Assembly: GCF_019175365.1 (NCBI RefSeq)
Contig: NZ_CP059572.1
Span: 558,001-622,000, forward strand
DNA from: Actinomadura graeca
GTDB lineage: Bacteria > Actinomycetota > Actinomycetes > Streptosporangiales > Streptosporangiaceae
Length of the DNA: 64,000 nt
Direction: 5' to 3'
Positions 7,181 to 14,328 of this stretch are shown here, piece after piece. The notes below the pieces were generated by a model, which made no database searches, had not been told where the DNA came from, and saw only the letters and a program-made list of their open reading frames with translations. The translations under genes and the position numbers were made by a program. Numbering within the stretch: position 1 is the stretch's first letter; every line of letters begins with the position of its first letter.

Positions 7181-8374
7181 TCAGCCCTTGATGCAGATGA
7201 GCTGGCGGAGGTGGGCCACTACCTCGACCAGGTCGGACTGGGCCTCGATCACCGTCTCCAGGTCCTTGTAGGCGGCGGGGATCTCGTCGATGATGCCGCC
7301 GTCCTTGCGGCATTCGACGCCGCGGGTCTGCTCGACCACGTCGTCCACGGTGTAGGTCCTGCGGGCCTTGGTGCGGCTCATCCGGCGGCCCGCGCCGTGG
7401 GAGGCGGAGTTGAAGGCGGTCTCGTTGCCGAGGCCGCGGACGATGTAGGTGCCGGTCGCCATCGAGCCCGGGATGATGCCGAGGTCGCCGGAGGCGGCGC
7501 GGATCGCGCCCTTGCGGGTGACGAGCAGGTCGACGCCGTCGTACTCCTCCTCCGCCACGTAGTTGTGGTGGCAGGAGATGACCTCGCCCCACGTGCAGCG
7601 GGCCTCGCCGAAGCGCTTGGTGACGACGTCCTGCGCGAGCGCCATCATCATCGCGCGGTTGCGGCGCGCGTACTCCTGCGCCCAGAACAGGTCGTGGCGG
7701 TAGGCGTCCATCGTCGTGGTGCCGGAGAGGAACACGGCGAGGTCGGCGTCCGGGAGGTCCTGGTTGTGCGGGAGCCTGCGGGCGGCCTCGACGTGGTGCT
7801 CGGCCAGCTCGTTGCCGATGTTGCGGGAACCCGAGTGCAGGACGAGCCAGATCGCGCCGTCGCCGTCCGCGCACAGCTCCAGGAAGTGGTTGCCGCCGCC
7901 GAGCGAGCCCATCTGCTTGCGCGCGCGGCCGAGGCGGGCGCGCACCGCCGGGTGCAGGTCGTCGAACGCCTTCCAGAAGTCGTACCAGCCGCGCTCCTTC
8001 AGGCTCGGGAGGCCGGACGGGTCGACCGGCTGCCGGTGCGCGCCGCGGCCGACGGGGACCGCGCGCTCCAGCCTGTGCCGGATTCCGGCGAGGTCGTCCG
8101 GCATGTCCTCGACGGTGAGGGACGACCCGGCGGCGGTCATCCCGCAGCCGATGTCCACGCCGACGGCGGCGGGCGACACCGCGTCGCGCATCGCGATCAC
8201 CGAGCCGACCGTGGTGCCCTTGCCGTAGTGGACGTCCGGCATGACGGCGAGGCCCTCCACCCACGGCAGGGCGGAGACGTTGCGGAGCTGGTCGAGGGCG
8301 ATGTCCTCGACGGTGTCGGGGTCGGCCCACATCCGGATGGGAACGCGGCCGCCCTTGAGCGTCTGGTACGGCAT
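7181..8374 (-). CDS. rtcB: RtcB-family RNA ligase
   Basis: A 397-residue 3'-phosphate/5'-OH RNA ligase (GTP- and Mn-dependent) that repairs or splices cleaved RNAs such as tRNA. Visible signatures are MPDVHYGKG at residues 45-53, GVDIGCGM at 72-79 with the metal-binding Cys78, GGGNHF, HSGSRNIGN, the HHNY histidines, GSMATGTYIVRG and the C-terminal SHGAGR, whose His is the guanylation site. Length is that of the shorter bacterial branch. The ATG is preceded by AAGGAGAAGG. It lies 89 nt downstream of selB on the same strand; no functional link between them is established. Confidence 0.93.
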   Translation of the reverse strand: MPYQTLKGGRVPIRMWADPDTVEDIALDQLRNVSALPWVEGLAVMPDVHYGKGTTVGSVIAMRDAVSPAAVGVDIGCGMTAAGSSLTVEDMPDDLAGIRHRLERAVPVGRGAHRQPVDPSGLPSLKERGWYDFWKAFDDLHPAVRARLGRARKQMGSLGGGNHFLELCADGDGAIWLVLHSGSRNIGNELAEHHVEAARRLPHNQDLPDADLAVFLSGTTTMDAYRHDLFWAQEYARRNRAMMMALAQDVVTKRFGEARCTWGEVISCHHNYVAEEEYDGVDLLVTRKGAIRAASGDLGIIPGSMATGTYIVRGLGNETAFNSASHGAGRRMSRTKARRTYTVDDVVEQTRGVECRKDGGIIDEIPAAYKDLETVIEAQSDLVEVVAHLRQLICIKG

Positions 8375-8463
8375 GCCTTCTCCTTGTGCGGGGTCCGGAC
8401 CGTGATCTATGACGCCAGAAACGCCGTGTGCGTTTCAAAGGGTTTTTCCCGCATGGGCGGGTG

Positions 8464-10146
8464 TCATGACCGGCGGCGCTCGGTGAGCCCGAGGCCGTCC
8501 AGGTGCCGCAGGAGGGCGACGGCGACCCGGCGGCTCGTCGCCAGCGCGTCGCCCGCCTGGCCCGGCGTGAACGGCTGCGGGAGCTCCGACAGGATCCGCA
8601 GCGCCTCCCGGTCGGCGCCCGGCAGCAGGACGACGCCGTCCGCGAGGCGCAGGACGGCGCCCGCGCGTTCGGCGGCCGCGAGGGCGCCGCCGGTGAGGCC
8701 CAGCTCGGCGAGCCGTTCGGGGCGGGGCGCCTCGAACGGCGCGCGTTCCATGTCGGCGCGGAGCCGGTCGACGGCCTCGGCGAGGCCCGCGGGCAGGGCC
8801 GGGGCGGGCCCGTGGACGCGCCCCGCCCGCAGGCGCAGCGGCGGCCGGACGAGCGCGGCGGTCAGCCGCCGGGTCGGCAGGCCGAGGCGGAGCCGGGCGG
8901 TCTCCAGCGGGACGCCCGGGGTCAGCGGGCGGTCGGCGGCGTGCCGGGACACCTCCTCGGCGAGGCGCTCGTGGAGCGAGTCCCAGTAGGCGGGGTCGGC
9001 GTACCAGCCGCCGTCCAGGGCGATCGCGTCCTTCGGCGGCGCGCAGCCCATCAGGTCCAGCTCGGACCGCCGGAGCAGGCCGTGGCGGCGCAGAACCACC
9101 GACCCGCCGGGACGGTCCGGCCAGGACGCCAGCTCCCGCGCGCGTGCCGCCCCGGCGCCGCGGCGGACGAGGGTCGGCGGGCGGACGTCCAGGACGCTCA
9201 CCCCGGCGACGGTGCGGCGGACGGGGTCGCGCAGCAGGCCGGTGTCGCCGACGTGCAGCGCCAGCCGCGCGTTGAGGGTCAGCCGGGCCGTGTCGGGGCC
9301 GAGCGGCCGCAGGCGCACCGCGACGGCGGCGGAGCCGATGTGCAGGATCATCTGCCGCGCGAGGCGCCCGGCGGCCTCGCCGAAGCGGGTGCGGACGTCG
9401 ACGCAGGTCGTGTGCGTCCAGCGGCCGGGGCTGATGGCGGCGGTCACCGGCCCGTCGCCGCGCAGGGCGACGGTGACGCGGGCGTATCCGCGGACGGAGC
9501 GGCGGGGCTCGCCGTCGCACTCGATCGATTCGACGCGGCGGCGGGCGCCCGACGGCAGGAGGAGCAGCTCGTCGCCGGTCCGGATCGTCCCGGCGCCGAG
9601 CGTGCCGGTGACGGCGGTGAGCCCGGCGGCGCGGCGCGTGCGGTCGGCCCACAGCCGGACCGGGGCGCCGGGGTCGGGGACCGGGACGCGGCCGGAGAGC
9701 CGTCCCAGGGCGGCCGCCAGCTCGTCGATCCCGGCGCGGGTGACGGTGCTGACCGCGACGGTCTCGATGCCGCGCAGGGACGTCCCGGCGAGCCGCTCGC
9801 GGGCCTGGCGCAGGACGAGCCTCGGGTCGGCGACGTCGGAGCGGGTGACGGCGAGGACGCCGTGCCGGACGCCGAGGGCGTCGAGCGCCGCCAGGTGCTC
9901 GCCCGACCGCGGCCGCCAGCCCTCGTCGGCGGCGACGGCGAACAGCACGGCGGGCGCCGGGCCGGCCGCGGCGATCACGGCGGGGACGGAGTGCTCGCCG
10001 CCGGGCGCGTCCACGAACGCGACGCGGCCGCCCGAGGGCAGGTCCGTCCAGGCGTCGCGGGGTCCCTCCGGGTCCATGCCGGTGAGCGCGCGCACGAGCG
10101 CCGACTTGCCGTGCCCGGCATGCCCGGCGGTGGCGACTACGTGCAT
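8464..10146 (-). CDS. selB: Selenocysteine-specific elongation factor SelB, altered G domain
   Basis: A 560-residue SelB homologue. SelB carries Sec-tRNA to UGA codons that have a SECIS hairpin. The P-loop GHAGHGKS is at residues 8-15 (usual form GHVDHGKS), AADEGW at about 72-77 and the G4 motif TRSD at 101-104. EF-Tu-like barrels and C-terminal winged helices (FTPGQAGDAL, RRVAVALLRHLDGLGL) follow. Two changes stand out. Between GMDPEG and WTDLPSG the roughly 17-residue switch I segment (typically EERRRGMTIDLG) is absent, and G3 reads DAPGGEH instead of DVPGHE, losing the catalytic-type His. GTPase function is therefore doubtful, although the frame is intact. ATG 10146 is the natural start; the ribosome site is weak. 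Confidence 0.85.
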   Translation of the reverse strand: MHVVATAGHAGHGKSALVRALTGMDPEGPRDAWTDLPSGGRVAFVDAPGGEHSVPAVIAAAGPAPAVLFAVAADEGWRPRSGEHLAALDALGVRHGVLAVTRSDVADPRLVLRQARERLAGTSLRGIETVAVSTVTRAGIDELAAALGRLSGRVPVPDPGAPVRLWADRTRRAAGLTAVTGTLGAGTIRTGDELLLLPSGARRRVESIECDGEPRRSVRGYARVTVALRGDGPVTAAISPGRWTHTTCVDVRTRFGEAAGRLARQMILHIGSAAVAVRLRPLGPDTARLTLNARLALHVGDTGLLRDPVRRTVAGVSVLDVRPPTLVRRGAGAARARELASWPDRPGGSVVLRRHGLLRRSELDLMGCAPPKDAIALDGGWYADPAYWDSLHERLAEEVSRHAADRPLTPGVPLETARLRLGLPTRRLTAALVRPPLRLRAGRVHGPAPALPAGLAEAVDRLRADMERAPFEAPRPERLAELGLTGGALAAAERAGAVLRLADGVVLLPGADREALRILSELPQPFTPGQAGDALATSRRVAVALLRHLDGLGLTERRRS

Positions 10147-10336
10147 CGGCGCCGTTCCCGGACGGGGGAGGCAACGGCCCGGGGCGCCGCGGTGCGGGGG
10201 TGGTGCAGACGAAGGTCCACGGAAGGCAACCCTAGGGACGCCGGACCGGCAGGGAAACCCGAGGGGGCCCACACTGCGAGATGGCAAATCTCACGGGACG
10301 GCGCGGGACGCGGGGGCGGCTGCCGGTTCGCGCTGG

Positions 10337-10450
10337 TCAGGGCCCGTTCGGGACCGTTCCGGCGTCGAGCCTGTCGCGGTGGGCCCCGAAGTCGTCGAGC
10401 ATCCGGTGGACGAGACCGGCGAACCGCTCGCGCTCGCCGCCGTTGGACCA
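10337..10450 (-). pseudogene. 3' fragment of a regulator-like gene
   Basis: A short minus-strand frame (WSNGGERERFAGLVHRMLDD ... ending at TGA 10337) looks like the C-terminal helix of a MarR-type regulator. It starts abruptly at the edge of the MFS fragment. No start or upstream domain remains. Confidence 0.35.
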
Positions 10451-10451
10451 G

Positions 10452-10676
10452 AGCGGCATCGCGAGCGGGATCGACTCCCTGGTCCGCACCACCGGCGGCG
10501 GCGTCGCGGGCGCGGTGACGGCGTCGATCCTGGCCGGGCGCGTGATCGCCGGGACGGGCGTGCCGTCGCTCGGCGCCTATGAGCTGTGCTTCTGGATCGT
10601 CGCGGCGGGCGCCGCCCCGGCCGCCGTGGTCGCCCTCGTCCACGGCCTGCGCCACCCGCATCGCAGGCCCGGCTGA
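10452..10676 (+). pseudogene. 3' fragment of an MFS drug-exporter gene
   Basis: The encoded SGIASGIDSLVRTTGGGVAG and the following hydrophobic helices (VIAGTGVPSLGAYELCFWIV) match the last two membrane segments of 14-TM EmrB/QacA-type exporters. The upstream part of the same frame does not look coding, so only the C terminus survives. It abuts the regulator fragment tail to tail, suggesting a deletion joined two neighbouring genes. The rest of the 10147-10796 gap shows no other gene. Confidence 0.5.
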
Positions 10677-10796
10677 CCACCGGCGGGGACGATCGTGACG
10701 GCGCGGGGCCTTGACGAACGGCACCCGCGCCGTGCCCTATAGGTGTGCGCCCCGAAATGCGGATTGGGGCCAGGGGACCGCACCTGGAGGAACGAA

Positions 10797-12686
10797 ATGG
10801 GGGCCTACGCCGCCGCGTACGAGCGCAGCATCGCCGATCCGACCCGTTTCTGGGGGCTGGCCGCCCGGGACATCCGCTGGCTCGTCCCGCCGGACCGCGT
10901 GCTGGACGACGGCGCGCCGCCGTTCTACCGCTGGTTCACCGGCGGTGAGCTGAACACCTGCGACAACGCCCTGGACCGGCACGTGGAGGAGGGACGCGGC
11001 GACCAGGCCGCCCTGATCTATGACAGTCCGGTCACCGGGACGAAGCGCTCCTACACCTTCCGGGAGCTGACCGCCCTCGTCGCCCGGTTCGCGGGGGCGC
11101 TGCGCGCGCAGGGCGTCGACCGCGGCGACCGCGTCATCATCTACCTGCCGATGGTCCCCGAGGCGGTCGTGGCGATGCTGGCGTGCGCCCGGCTCGGCGC
11201 CGTCCACTCGGTGGTGTTCGGCGGGTTCGCGGCGCCGGAGCTGGCCGTCCGGATCGACGACGCCCGGCCCAAGGCGATCGTGTCGGCGTCCTGCGGCATC
11301 GAGGGCGGCCGGATCGTCCCCTACAAACCGCTGCTCGACAAGGCCCTCGAACTGGCCAGGCACAAGGTGGAACGGTGCGTCATCCGGCAGCGCGAGCAGC
11401 TGCACGCCGACCTCGTCCGGCCGCGGGACGTGGAGTGGGACGAGGCGATCGCGGGCGCCGAGGCCGCCGAGTGCGTGCCGGTCGCCGCCACCGACCCCCT
11501 CTACATCCTGTACACGTCCGGGACGACCGGGCGGCCCAAGGGCGTCGTCCGCGACAACGGCGGGCACGCTGTGGCGCTGCGCTGGTCCATGGAGAACGTC
11601 TACGGGGTCGGCCCCGGTGACGTGTTCTGGGCGGCGTCCGACGTCGGCTGGGTCGTCGGGCACTCCTACATCGTGTACGCGCCGCTCCTGACGGGCTGCA
11701 CGACCGTCCTGTACGAGGGCAAGCCGGTGGGCACGCCCGACGCGGGCGCGTTCTGGCGCGTCGCCGCCGAGCACCGGGTCAAGGCGCTGTTCGCCGCGCC
11801 CACGGCGATCCGGGCGATCAAGAAGGAGGACCCGGAGGGCGCGCTGCTCGCCGGGCACGACCTGTCCGCGCTGGACACCCTGTTCCTCGCCGGGGAGCGG
11901 ACCGACCCCGACACCTACCGCTGGGCGACCCGCGTCCTGGACCGTCCCGTCGTCGACCACTGGTGGCAGACCGAGACGGGCTGGCCGATCGTGGCGAACC
12001 TGCGCGGGCTGGAGCCGATGCCGATCAAGGCCGGGTCCCCGTCGGTGCCCGTCCCCGGGTACGACGTGCGCGTCCTCGGCCCGGACGGCGGGCCCGTCCC
12101 GCCGGGTGCGGACGGCGACATCGCGCTGCGGCTGCCCCTGCCGCCGGGCACCCTGCCGACCCTGTGGCAGGACGACGAGCGGTTCGTCGAGTCCTACCTC
12201 ACCCGGCACCCGGGCCACTACCTCACCGGCGACGGCGGGCACGTCGACGAGGACGGCTACGTGTGGGTCATGGGCCGCACCGACGACGTCATCAACGTGG
12301 CCGGCCACCGCCTGTCCACCGGGACGATGGAGGAGGTCATCGCCGCGCATCCGGCGGTCGCCGAGTGCGCGGTGATCGGCGTCCACGACGCGCTCAAGGG
12401 CCAGGTGCCCCGCGGGCTCGTCGTGCTGAAGAGCGGCGTGCTCGCCGAGCCGGACGAGCTGGCCGCCGAGCTGGTGCGGATGGTGCGCGACCAGGTCGGG
12501 CCCGTCGCGGCGCTCAAGGAGATCACGATCGTCGCGGCGCTGCCCAAGACCAGGTCGGGCAAGATCCTGCGGGGCGTGATGCGCGGCATCGCCGACGGGC
12601 AGGAGGTCACCGTCCCGTCCACGATCGAGGACCCGGCCGTCCTGGACGGCCTCCGCGCCGTCCTGCGGCCCCCGGCGCGGGACTAG
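10797..12686 (+). CDS. prpE: Propionyl-CoA-ligase-like acyl-CoA synthetase
   Basis: A 629-residue ANL-superfamily ligase of the acetyl/propionyl-CoA synthetase branch, activating a short-chain acid through an acyl-AMP. The N-terminal motif FGGFAAPELAVRIDDARPK is followed by the ATP loop YTSGTTGRPKG (residues 239-249), VGWVVGHSYIVYAPL, WWQTETGWP, GRTDDVINVAGHRLS and the C-terminal PKTRSGKILR, with catalytic Lys589 that is often acetylated in this family. Overall wording is closest to PrpE, so propionate is the likely substrate, though acetate cannot be excluded. ATG 10797 follows GGAGG at 7 nt. The stop shares a CTAG with the convergent GlsB-type gene. Confidence 0.85.
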   Translation: MGAYAAAYERSIADPTRFWGLAARDIRWLVPPDRVLDDGAPPFYRWFTGGELNTCDNALDRHVEEGRGDQAALIYDSPVTGTKRSYTFRELTALVARFAGALRAQGVDRGDRVIIYLPMVPEAVVAMLACARLGAVHSVVFGGFAAPELAVRIDDARPKAIVSASCGIEGGRIVPYKPLLDKALELARHKVERCVIRQREQLHADLVRPRDVEWDEAIAGAEAAECVPVAATDPLYILYTSGTTGRPKGVVRDNGGHAVALRWSMENVYGVGPGDVFWAASDVGWVVGHSYIVYAPLLTGCTTVLYEGKPVGTPDAGAFWRVAAEHRVKALFAAPTAIRAIKKEDPEGALLAGHDLSALDTLFLAGERTDPDTYRWATRVLDRPVVDHWWQTETGWPIVANLRGLEPMPIKAGSPSVPVPGYDVRVLGPDGGPVPPGADGDIALRLPLPPGTLPTLWQDDERFVESYLTRHPGHYLTGDGGHVDEDGYVWVMGRTDDVINVAGHRLSTGTMEEVIAAHPAVAECAVIGVHDALKGQVPRGLVVLKSGVLAEPDELAAELVRMVRDQVGPVAALKEITIVAALPKTRSGKILRGVMRGIADGQEVTVPSTIEDPAVLDGLRAVLRPPARD

Positions 12687-12961: not shown

Positions 12962-13024
12962 GGTCGCGTCCCGACGATCTTCTACCCGCTTTCCGATCAT
13001 AGACGCGACCTGCGGGAACGTCAG
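12962..13024 (-). promoter_or_regulatory. Promoter with flanking inverted repeat upstream of the GlsB-type gene
   Basis: On the minus strand CTGACG (13019-13024), 17 nt and TATGAT (12996-13001) form a near-consensus sigma-70-type promoter. The -35 lies inside the 3' end of selD. GGTCGCGTC (12962-12970) and GACGCGACC (13002-13010) are a perfect 9-bp inverted repeat. One arm is in the spacer and the other in the leader, so it could be an operator loop or a terminator for selD. Confidence 0.5.
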
Positions 13025-14013
13025 CGCACCCGGAGCGCGCGGCGGCCCCGGCCGACCAGCTCCCCGATCACCGGCGCGCCGGGCACCTCCCCCGCGACCA
13101 GCAGCCCGCCGGACGTCTGCGCGTCGGCCAGCAGCAGCCGCTCCTCCTCGGCGATCCGGCCGAAGTCGGTGTGCGGCGTCACCCACGCCAGGTTCCGCCG
13201 GGTCGCGCCGGGCACGAACCCGTCGCGGACGGCGGCGCGCGCCCCGTCGAGGTACTCCACCGCCCTGGCGTCCACGACCGCGGTGACCCCGGCGGCCCGC
13301 GCCAGCTTGTAGAGGTGCCCGAGCAGCCCGAACCCGCTGACGCCGGTGGCGCACCGGACACCGCGGTCGAGCGCCGCCCCCGCCGCGTCCGCGTTGAGCG
13401 CGGCCATCGTCTCGACCGCGTGCGCGAACACCTCCCCCGTCGCCTTGTGGCGCGCGTTGAGCACGCCCAGGCCGAGCGGCTTGGTGAGCGAGAGCGGCAC
13501 GCCGGGACGTCCCGCGTCCAGCCGCAGCAGCCGGCCCGGGTCGGCGGCGCCCGTCACCGCGAGGCCGTACTTGGGCTCGGGGTCGTCCGCGCCGTGCCCG
13601 CCCACGACCGGGCACCCGGCGCGCGCCGCCGCGTCCCGTCCGCCGCGCAGGACCTCCCGGGCCAAATCCGCCGGCAGGGCGTCCCGCGGCCAGCCGAGCA
13701 GGCTGAGCGCCATGAGCGGCACGCCGCCCACCGCGTAGACGGCCGACAGCGCGCTCGCGGCGGCGATGCGCCCCCAGTCGTAGGCGTCGTCGACCACCGG
13801 CGGGAAGAAGACCGCCGCGGACACCACCGCGCGCCCCTCCCCCACCCGCAGGACGGCCGCGTCATCGCCGTCCTCGCCCCCGGCGACCAGATCGTCCCCG
13901 CCGCCGGTGAGCCCGGCGACGACACGTTCCAGCTCACCCGGCGGAATGGTGCTCGCGCAGCCCCCGCCGTGGGCGTACTGCGTAAGACGGGCAGTGGGGA
14001 CAACACGGTTCAC
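13021..14013 (-). CDS. selD: Selenophosphate synthetase SelD, altered active-site loop
   Basis: A 330-residue SelD homologue (ATP + selenide to selenophosphate). RLTQYAHGGGC at residues 9-19 carries the catalytic Cys (E. coli Cys17). The following residues are A-S-T where the family has G/A-C-K, so the lysine equivalent to E. coli Lys20 is Thr22. GDDAAVL, VVGGHGADDPEPKYGLAVTG, PLGLGVLNARHK, TGVSGFGLLGHL and the C-terminal ADAQTSGGLL are conserved. The GTG start at 14013 gives normal length; there is no ribosome site, but a promoter 5 nt away suggests a leaderless message. It is divergent from tRNA-Sec. The family call is firm; activity is in question. Confidence 0.88.
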   Translation of the reverse strand: MNRVVPTARLTQYAHGGGCASTIPPGELERVVAGLTGGGDDLVAGGEDGDDAAVLRVGEGRAVVSAAVFFPPVVDDAYDWGRIAAASALSAVYAVGGVPLMALSLLGWPRDALPADLAREVLRGGRDAAARAGCPVVGGHGADDPEPKYGLAVTGAADPGRLLRLDAGRPGVPLSLTKPLGLGVLNARHKATGEVFAHAVETMAALNADAAGAALDRGVRCATGVSGFGLLGHLYKLARAAGVTAVVDARAVEYLDGARAAVRDGFVPGATRRNLAWVTPHTDFGRIAEEERLLLADAQTSGGLLVAGEVPGAPVIGELVGRGRRALRVR

Positions 14014-14232: not shown

Positions 14233-14328
14233 GGAGGCGTGAGAGTGCCTGGTGGCCTCCTCGGTCTTCAAAACCGATGGTCCCGAGCACCTCGGGACGG
14301 CGGGTTCGATCCCCGCACGCCTCCGCCA
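14233..14328 (+). tRNA. selC: tRNA-Sec (anticodon UCA)
   Basis: The transcript folds as a selenocysteine tRNA. The acceptor stem has 8 bp (GGAGGCGT with ACGCCTCC), then the discriminator G and encoded CCA. The anticodon stem is TCGGT/ACCGA with loop CTTCAAA, giving TCA at 14268-14270. A long variable arm has a 7-bp stem (TCCCGAG/CTCGGGA), and the T arm is GCGGG-TTCGATC-CCCGC. All stems are perfect, so the RNA looks functional. TAAGAT at 14220-14225 is a fitting -10; no clear -35. selA, which often neighbours this gene, is absent here. Confidence 0.95.

Follow-up and report, generated by a model that had tools for sequence, protein, structure and literature searches.

SelB has been called a signature of selenocysteine decoding (PMC5029168). 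Archaeal aSelBL proteins, which include 'EF-Pyl', are found mostly in genomes without selenocysteine, and their function is given as unknown (PMC3037878); the accessible text of a survey of translational GTPases names aSelBL in archaea only (PMC4342817). Two further cases bear on the gene described here. Yeast Ski7, a pseudo-translational GTPase related to Hbs1, binds GTP stably and has a non-decoding role (PMC4509514), and in metazoan SPS1, a group of SelD paralogs without Sec or Cys, the catalytic residue has been lost repeatedly and the role is unrelated to Sec synthesis (PMC4561486). Here and below, these characterizations reflect the accessible portions of the sources. The literature searched, mostly open with few subscription papers, yielded no report of a bacterial SelB of the selB2 kind.

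The selB2 gene and its altered G domain

The window, a 64,000-nucleotide stretch of Actinomadura graeca DNA, contains a SelB-like gene, selB2, in an open frame whose product scores above the Pfam cut-off for both GTP_EFTU (PF00009) and SelB-wing_3 (PF09107), the best GTP_EFTU stretch starting at residue 41. The gene and its landmarks are:

8464 to 10146, minus strand: selB2 (the alpha copy), SelB-like without switch I, 560 amino acids
10102 to 10125, minus strand: P-loop GHAGHGKS, residues 8-15, with Lys14 and Ser15 kept
10051 to 10077, minus strand: junction MDPEGPRDA, residues 24-32, in place of switch I, 12 residues shorter than in normal copies
9997 to 10011, minus strand: G3 motif DAPGG, residues 46-50, with Gly50 for the catalytic His
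9835 to 9846, minus strand: G4 motif TRSD, residues 101-104, kept (residue tally)
9640 to 9645, minus strand: aminoacyl-pocket Asp168-Arg169, kept (alignment)
9478 to 9480, minus strand: aminoacyl-pocket Arg223, invariant in 99 aligned homologs
8467 to 9174, minus strand: winged-helix half, residues 325-560, boundary approximate (PF09107 and structural model)

The G domain runs in the order GHAGHGKS, ALVRALTG, MDPEGPRDA, WTDLPSG and, further on, VDAPGGEH. The initial annotation was right that switch I and its conserved Thr are missing and overestimated the loss at about 17 residues: the P-loop Ser and the G3 Asp are 30 residues apart in selB2 and 42 apart in 12 of 12 normal alpha copies, a net loss of 12. 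It also had GMDPEG followed by WTDLPSG without switch I, which is the case, and joined directly, which is not, since the four residues PRDA lie between them. The motif RRRG(L/M)T(I/L)(D/E)LG is absent together with the Thr, and in the normal copy of the window's genome (GHVDHGKS...GMEPDRLEEERRRGLTIELGFAWTDL...VDVPGHER) the stretch from TG to WTDL is 12 residues longer. The reported change of G3 from DVPGHE to DAPGGEH stands, with Gly50 at the His position and a His two residues beyond it. A third change in the G domain had gone unremarked, namely Gly11 in place of the P-loop Asp of GHVDHGK.

Set against functional bacterial SelB, selB2 has the P-loop Lys and Ser, the D168/R169/R223 pocket and the winged helices, and lacks the switch I Thr and the G3 His. 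Its Asp168-Arg169 pair aligns with DR in E. coli SelB and with DH in archaeal SelB. The protein ends 5 residues past Thr555, where normal copies continue for 10 or more, and the C-terminal end is shortened in many altered copies. A structural model of the full-length protein has a pLDDT of 90.7, and its closest structure is the bacterial EF-Sec 4zu9. The model also matches the nucleotide-bound crystal entries 3pen and 3sjz, whose titles describe aIF2-gamma with residues 37-47 or 41-45 deleted.

The surroundings of selB2 contain the following features:

7181 to 8374, minus strand: rtcB, RNA ligase (PF01139), 89 bp downstream of selB2
10281 to 10676, plus strand: short frame between selB2 and the acyl-CoA ligase gene, by eye perhaps a transporter remnant
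10743 to 12686, plus strand: acyl-CoA ligase gene (named by eye), a conserved neighbour
13024 to 14010, minus strand: selD2, a SelD paralog (PF00586/PF02769), start codon not settled
14233 to 14324, plus strand: tRNA-Sec, near selB2 and adjoining selD2

Synteny was considered as a pointer to a partner of selB2 and decides nothing, as rtcB, the acyl-CoA ligase gene, selD2 and tRNA-Sec also surround normal alpha loci. The gap before rtcB, at 8375-8463 in the window, shows striking conservation across many loci (CATAGATCACGGTTCGGATCCC...AAGGAGAAGGC-ATG); it is perhaps a promoter or RNA element and, judged by eye, may be rtcB's own promoter.

Normal and altered selB genes across Actinomadura

The window's genome (8.98 Mb in 3 contigs) holds one other full-length selB match, G000:C1:1953329-1955098, which is 56% identical. 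This is the second, normal selB whose presence the initial annotation had raised: a complete copy in a selA-selB-selD cluster, reading DRLEEERRRGLTIELGFAWTDL and DVPGHER, with a formate dehydrogenase gene carrying an in-frame TGA adjoining the cluster. The tRNA-Sec beside selD2 is the sole one over the cut-off in this genome, with no second one found.

All 65 genomes of the genus have a selB match. We inspected the N-terminus of the native gene, here called alpha, in each of them and found a full switch I in 12 genomes; the motif is lost in the other 53, being deleted in 45 and rewritten in 8. In the deleted kind the distance from P-loop to G3 is 29-35 residues in 42 of 43 measured loci, compared with 42 in normal copies; G3 itself was not found in the remaining locus, L121, and the alpha N-termini of three further genomes were assigned by eye. 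The rewritten kind measures 37-42 residues in six genomes described below as selenocysteine-free, 50 in L109 and 61 in L102. The deletion is thus common to close relatives, in which the gene is kept by selection (see below), and its spread led us to reject a sequencing or assembly error, one of two objections raised with the initial annotation. The other, that SelB proteins of proven function might share the short G domain, found no example: among copies resembling the working SelB, switch I is full in 12 of 12 alpha-normal N-termini and in 39 of 39 second or third copies, all 39 of which have the switch I Thr, the P-loop Asp and the G3 His.

The state of the alpha gene tracks its company. Upstream of normal alpha selB lies selA in 12 of 12 cases, and selA adjoins altered alpha selB at none of 51 loci, in a count where locus L086 gives only 659 bases upstream of selB. 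No second selB was found in the 12 alpha-normal genomes, an extra piece in G022 being by identity the rest of a contig-split alpha copy. A second selB is present in 45 of the 53 altered genomes, or 45 of the 47 that also have tRNA-Sec; the remaining two are drafts of 600 contigs. Of the 65 genomes, 46 have a formate dehydrogenase match containing one TGA. All 46 are altered genomes with tRNA-Sec; the 12 alpha-normal and 6 selenocysteine-free genomes lack such a match, and G001 has no match. The alpha-normal genomes (L065, L068, L087-L091, L093-L095, L097, L117) have SelA and tRNA-Sec, and a search of two formate dehydrogenase families for a selenoprotein served by their normal alpha system gave no TGA-bearing match; a Mo-enzyme frame near L065 has no stop in its motif region and, by eye, a Cys.

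Several loci have features of their own. The single contig G050:C1 carries two alpha loci, L085 and L092, near its two ends, with identical rtcB and acs proteins; the second selB2 of this genome diverges near its end. Six loci in two clades (L105, L110, L112, L114, L115, L116) have in-frame linker expansions past residue ~450, giving selB2 proteins of 629-724 amino acids. The second selB of G058, G006 and G033 (L157, L158, L159) has no selA or selD nearby and is ~57% identical to the usual second copy. Among G006, G033, G042, G048, G057 and G058, selA adjoins the formate dehydrogenase gene on another stretch in 5 of 6, the two lying on separate contigs in G006, and G006, G033, G042 and G048 have a second tRNA-Sec with a better score.

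Six genomes (G003, G011, G035, G039, G055, G062), one of them (G062) a single contig, have no second selB, no SelA match and no credible tRNA-Sec, and are the ones we call selenocysteine-free. SelA matches are absent from nine genomes in all, the other three being drafts of 510-600 contigs. No tRNA-Sec match was found in five of the six, and G003 has one of 72 nt and 50.5 bits. We consider 72 nt too short for a bacterial tRNA-Sec. Switch I is rewritten in all six, and the deleted form occurs only with tRNA-Sec (45 genomes). Five of the six each have an intact alpha selB and one selD; in G055 selB is interrupted by a TGA and selD is absent. By sequence, G003 is matched by Actinomadura atramentaria, whose strain DSM 43919 has been listed as 'orphan SelD', that is, SelD without other selenium genes (PMC5029168). 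Beyond that listing, G003 has retained a SelB-like gene whose switch I is rewritten, and in its SelD a Gly replaces the first active-site Cys.

A protein tree was built from 49 proteins with most of the G domain removed, using every second row of the large clade and 13 database proteins; it omits L120, L121 and partial rows, and the N-terminal cut varies among rows. On this tree the altered and normal states need 4 changes (bootstrap range 3-4), none of 200 trees needs only one, and the starred branches force at least 2. A tree of rtcB+acs, covering 58 of 63 alpha rows after those short of rtcB+acs sequence were dropped, also needs 4. The protein tree, which contains no archaeal sequences, places selB2 within actinobacterial SelB, beside normal alpha copies. 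The deletion is found in a single clade, possibly from one origin, and the other changes of state are rewritings of switch I. A pattern rule classed the 120 best database relatives as 69 altered, 48 normal and 3 unclear, and the named altered ones are Actinomadura or Spirillospora with one exception. P0035, a SelB of the altered kind whose G domain is much like the Actinomadura ones, is filed under Mycobacterium tuberculosis and is probably a mislabelled or contaminated record.

Conserved residues and selection

The 53 altered alpha genes comprise 43 that are complete and intact, 3 that are disrupted (G055, G001, G043) and 7 cut or split by contig ends. Residues were tallied over 43 complete altered proteins, namely 36 of the deleted clade, L102/L109 and 5 selenocysteine-free ones, omitting L092, L120, L121, G043-G045 and the contig-cut L101, L108, L111, L113, L117 and L118. 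The P-loop Lys, P-loop Ser/Thr, G3 Asp, G3 Gly, G4 Thr, G4 Asp and G5 Ser are each present in 43 of 43. The P-loop Asp is lost in 42 of 43 and the G3 His in 38 of 43. At the switch I Thr position, 3 of the 43 proteins have Thr (L114-L116, with the segment shortened and the motif absent), and L102/L109 have Ser. The G3 His is retained in L102, L109 and L103, the last of which also keeps the P-loop Asp, and judging by these residues the three may be less impaired. In the aminoacyl pocket, whose positions were matched via the alignment and PMC3037878, Asp168 is found in 38 of 43, Arg or His169 in 39 of 43 and Arg223 in 43 of 43.

Read from these residues, the protein looks like one that has retained its nucleotide site and shed its timer. 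The P-loop Asp and switch I jointly hold a monovalent ion in related GTPases (PMC4509514), which would explain their being lost together in the deleted clade. The suggestion in the initial annotation that this SelB has either ceased to hydrolyse GTP in the normal way or acquired a different role is borne out as far as residues can tell: those for the gamma-phosphate and catalysis are lost, those contacting the nucleotide are kept, and a normal selB lies elsewhere in the genome.

Altered selB is under purifying selection. Omega was estimated with a purpose-written codon likelihood routine, and is given below for the whole gene and then for G domain, barrels and winged helices:

Alpha-normal (11 rows): 0.100; 0.065, 0.076, 0.145
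Deleted clade (11 of 36 complete rows): 0.133; 0.151, 0.110, 0.144
Selenocysteine-free (5 of 5 complete): 0.188; 0.229, 0.169, 0.173
Second copies (10 of 39): 0.126; 0.086, 0.134, 0.154

Compared by domain, altered genes show roughly a twofold relaxation in the G domain and none in the winged-helix half. Whole-gene omega of altered sets and pairs is 0.086-0.188, with a top domain value of 0.229, and omega = 1 is rejected in every codon-model set and pair (2dlnL 52 to 178 across six altered pairs); an iqtree log gives 0.090 for one set against 0.133 here, so the absolute values are model-dependent and it is the contrasts and the rejection of 1 that are usable. The pair of the window and L060 has an omega of 0.089, L102/L109 0.178 and three other altered pairs 0.086-0.136; L099/L100, from within one selenocysteine-free species, gives 0.138 with a 2dlnL of 52. 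Differences at the three codon positions number 33:28:112 for the window and L060 and 13:15:45 for L099/L100. NG86 ratios of altered pairs are higher, at 0.22-0.56 for the whole gene and up to 0.97 for the G domain in one pair (L063/L098). GC3 of altered copies is as high as in normal copies. A pseudogene is not supported by the low omega and the codon-position bias, the three disrupted copies being exceptions.

The neighbouring SelD has changed as well. The active-site motif of selD2 is GGGCASTIPPG where the reference reads GGGCACKIPPG, with the Cys kept and Thr for Lys. E. coli SelD requires Cys17 and Lys20. The first Cys and the Lys are both present in 20 of the 37 altered loci that could be read (2 could not), in all 5 readable normal loci and in 1 of 5 selenocysteine-free ones, and second-cluster SelD reads CACK in 33 of 33 (3 unread); the erosion of SelD2 is therefore partial and lineage-specific. 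Its omega is 0.100 in altered, 0.131 in selenocysteine-free and 0.079 in normal loci, which indicates purifying selection. Retention of SelD2 for selenouridine was considered and rejected, SelU (TIGR03167) being found in 0 of 65 genomes with a positive E. coli control.

What selB2 may do, and its nearest known kin

We favour, with a probability of about 0.58, a reading of selB2 as a displaced native SelB kept as a nucleotide-holding pseudo-GTPase with a non-decoding, probably RNA-binding role. The native selB of the genus would have been freed from selenocysteine delivery, mostly with a second selA-selB-selD set present, and in a few lineages when selenocysteine was apparently given up, and would then have been retained as a nucleotide-holding pseudo-GTPase, with switch I deleted in the window's clade and rewritten elsewhere. 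Guanine nucleotide would be bound as a structural cofactor. Because the gamma-phosphate would not be sensed and the ribosome could not fire it, selB2 would not be an elongation factor; it would act as a non-cycling RNA-binding protein through its two beta-barrels and winged helices. Constraint on the winged helices in altered selB equals that in working SelB (0.144 vs 0.145), and the keeping of altered selB even where selenocysteine has seemingly been given up suggests a different job. The higher omega in selenocysteine-free species and the restriction of the deleted form to genomes with tRNA-Sec count against this reading, as do the three disrupted genes, the NG86 G-domain ratio of 0.97, Gly169 in 4 of 5 complete selenocysteine-free proteins, the residues kept in L102, L109 and L103, and the shortened C-terminal ends.

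That same restriction makes a tRNA-Sec holdase or regulator the strongest rival for the window's gene, although we consider it unlikely on balance. Here selB2 would bind tRNA-Sec charged with Sec or Ser while undergoing no GTP cycle, and would either buffer it for the second SelB or compete with that protein. The sole tRNA-Sec of the window's genome lies in the selB2 locus, and binding of Ser-charged tRNA-Sec by bacterial SelB is insensitive to guanine nucleotides according to work cited in PMC3037878. The pocket fits too: the 38 complete altered proteins from tRNA-Sec genomes all have Arg or His169 and Arg223, and Gly169 appears in 4 of 5 complete selenocysteine-free proteins and in no other tallied protein. 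These four form one clade, however, and therefore represent one event; moreover, the rewritten-switch gene is under selection in species without tRNA-Sec, and proteins of the deleted clade lack the Phe/Tyr at the switch I lid position.

Slow decay, in which a displaced gene drifts toward loss and has not yet stopped, is improbable. More than one loss on the tree, the raised G-domain omega with its NG86 pair at 0.97, the three disrupted copies and the eroded SelD partner would all suit it, but omega is far below 1 in all codon-model sets and pairs, the P-loop Lys, G3 Asp/Gly, G4 Asp and G5 Ser are unchanged throughout the tally, and GC3 remains high.

We give similarly little credence to an RNA-repair adaptor that brings RtcB to tRNA or ribosomes in the way that PrfH pairs with RtcB2, a reported operon (PMC9223846, accessible portion). 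In all 40 altered loci measured the gap to rtcB spans 35-241 bp, and the 6 selenocysteine-free loci have 80-115 bp; normal loci range from 74 to 3242 bp, with more than 800 bp in 6 of 10. Yet rtcB adjoins normal alpha selB too, so the order may be inherited, and the conserved stretch in the gap may serve rtcB itself. Continued delivery of selenocysteine by an unusual GTPase mechanism, for which the full domain layout, the aminoacyl pocket and the adjacent tRNA-Sec might speak, is very improbable given a second SelB in nearly all altered genomes with tRNA-Sec and altered copies in selenocysteine-free genomes.

A SelB-family gene is under selection in genomes without SelA or credible tRNA-Sec, which makes SelB alone a misleading basis for annotation and calls for a different reading of one organism listed as 'orphan SelD'. 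The gene is also a natural experiment on what remains of a translational GTPase once its timer is removed. Tentatively, and at somewhat less than even odds, we propose more broadly that bacteria have on more than one occasion made SelB a switchless nucleotide-holding RNA-binder, kept with an eroded SelD after selenocysteine was handed over or lost. If so, both proteins would have had a further, selenium-independent function in this lineage from the outset, and the presence of SelB would be an unsafe marker of selenocysteine use.

The nearest known kind is archaeal aSelBL. As described in the accessible text of PMC3037878, aSelBL is like selB2 in being SelB-derived, with switch I and G3 altered, the G3 His not conserved and the aminoacyl pocket largely kept. 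The P-loop carries deletions in many aSelBL proteins, but its Lys and Ser/Thr are invariant in altered selB; aSelBL has no C-terminal extension, whereas selB2 keeps the bacterial winged helices; and aSelBL is broad and old, whereas selB2 is found in one genus and close kin. Metazoan SPS1 parallels the SelD half, that is selD2 and, by analogy, selB2, although it concerns SelD only and is eukaryotic (PMC4561486). The nearest functional analogue is Ski7, in which the G3 His is likewise replaced; switch I is still present there, with Asn in place of the P-loop Asp (PMC4509514), and both are gone in selB2. The combination typical of Ski7, a lost catalytic His with the nucleotide site otherwise kept, is found in selB2 as well.
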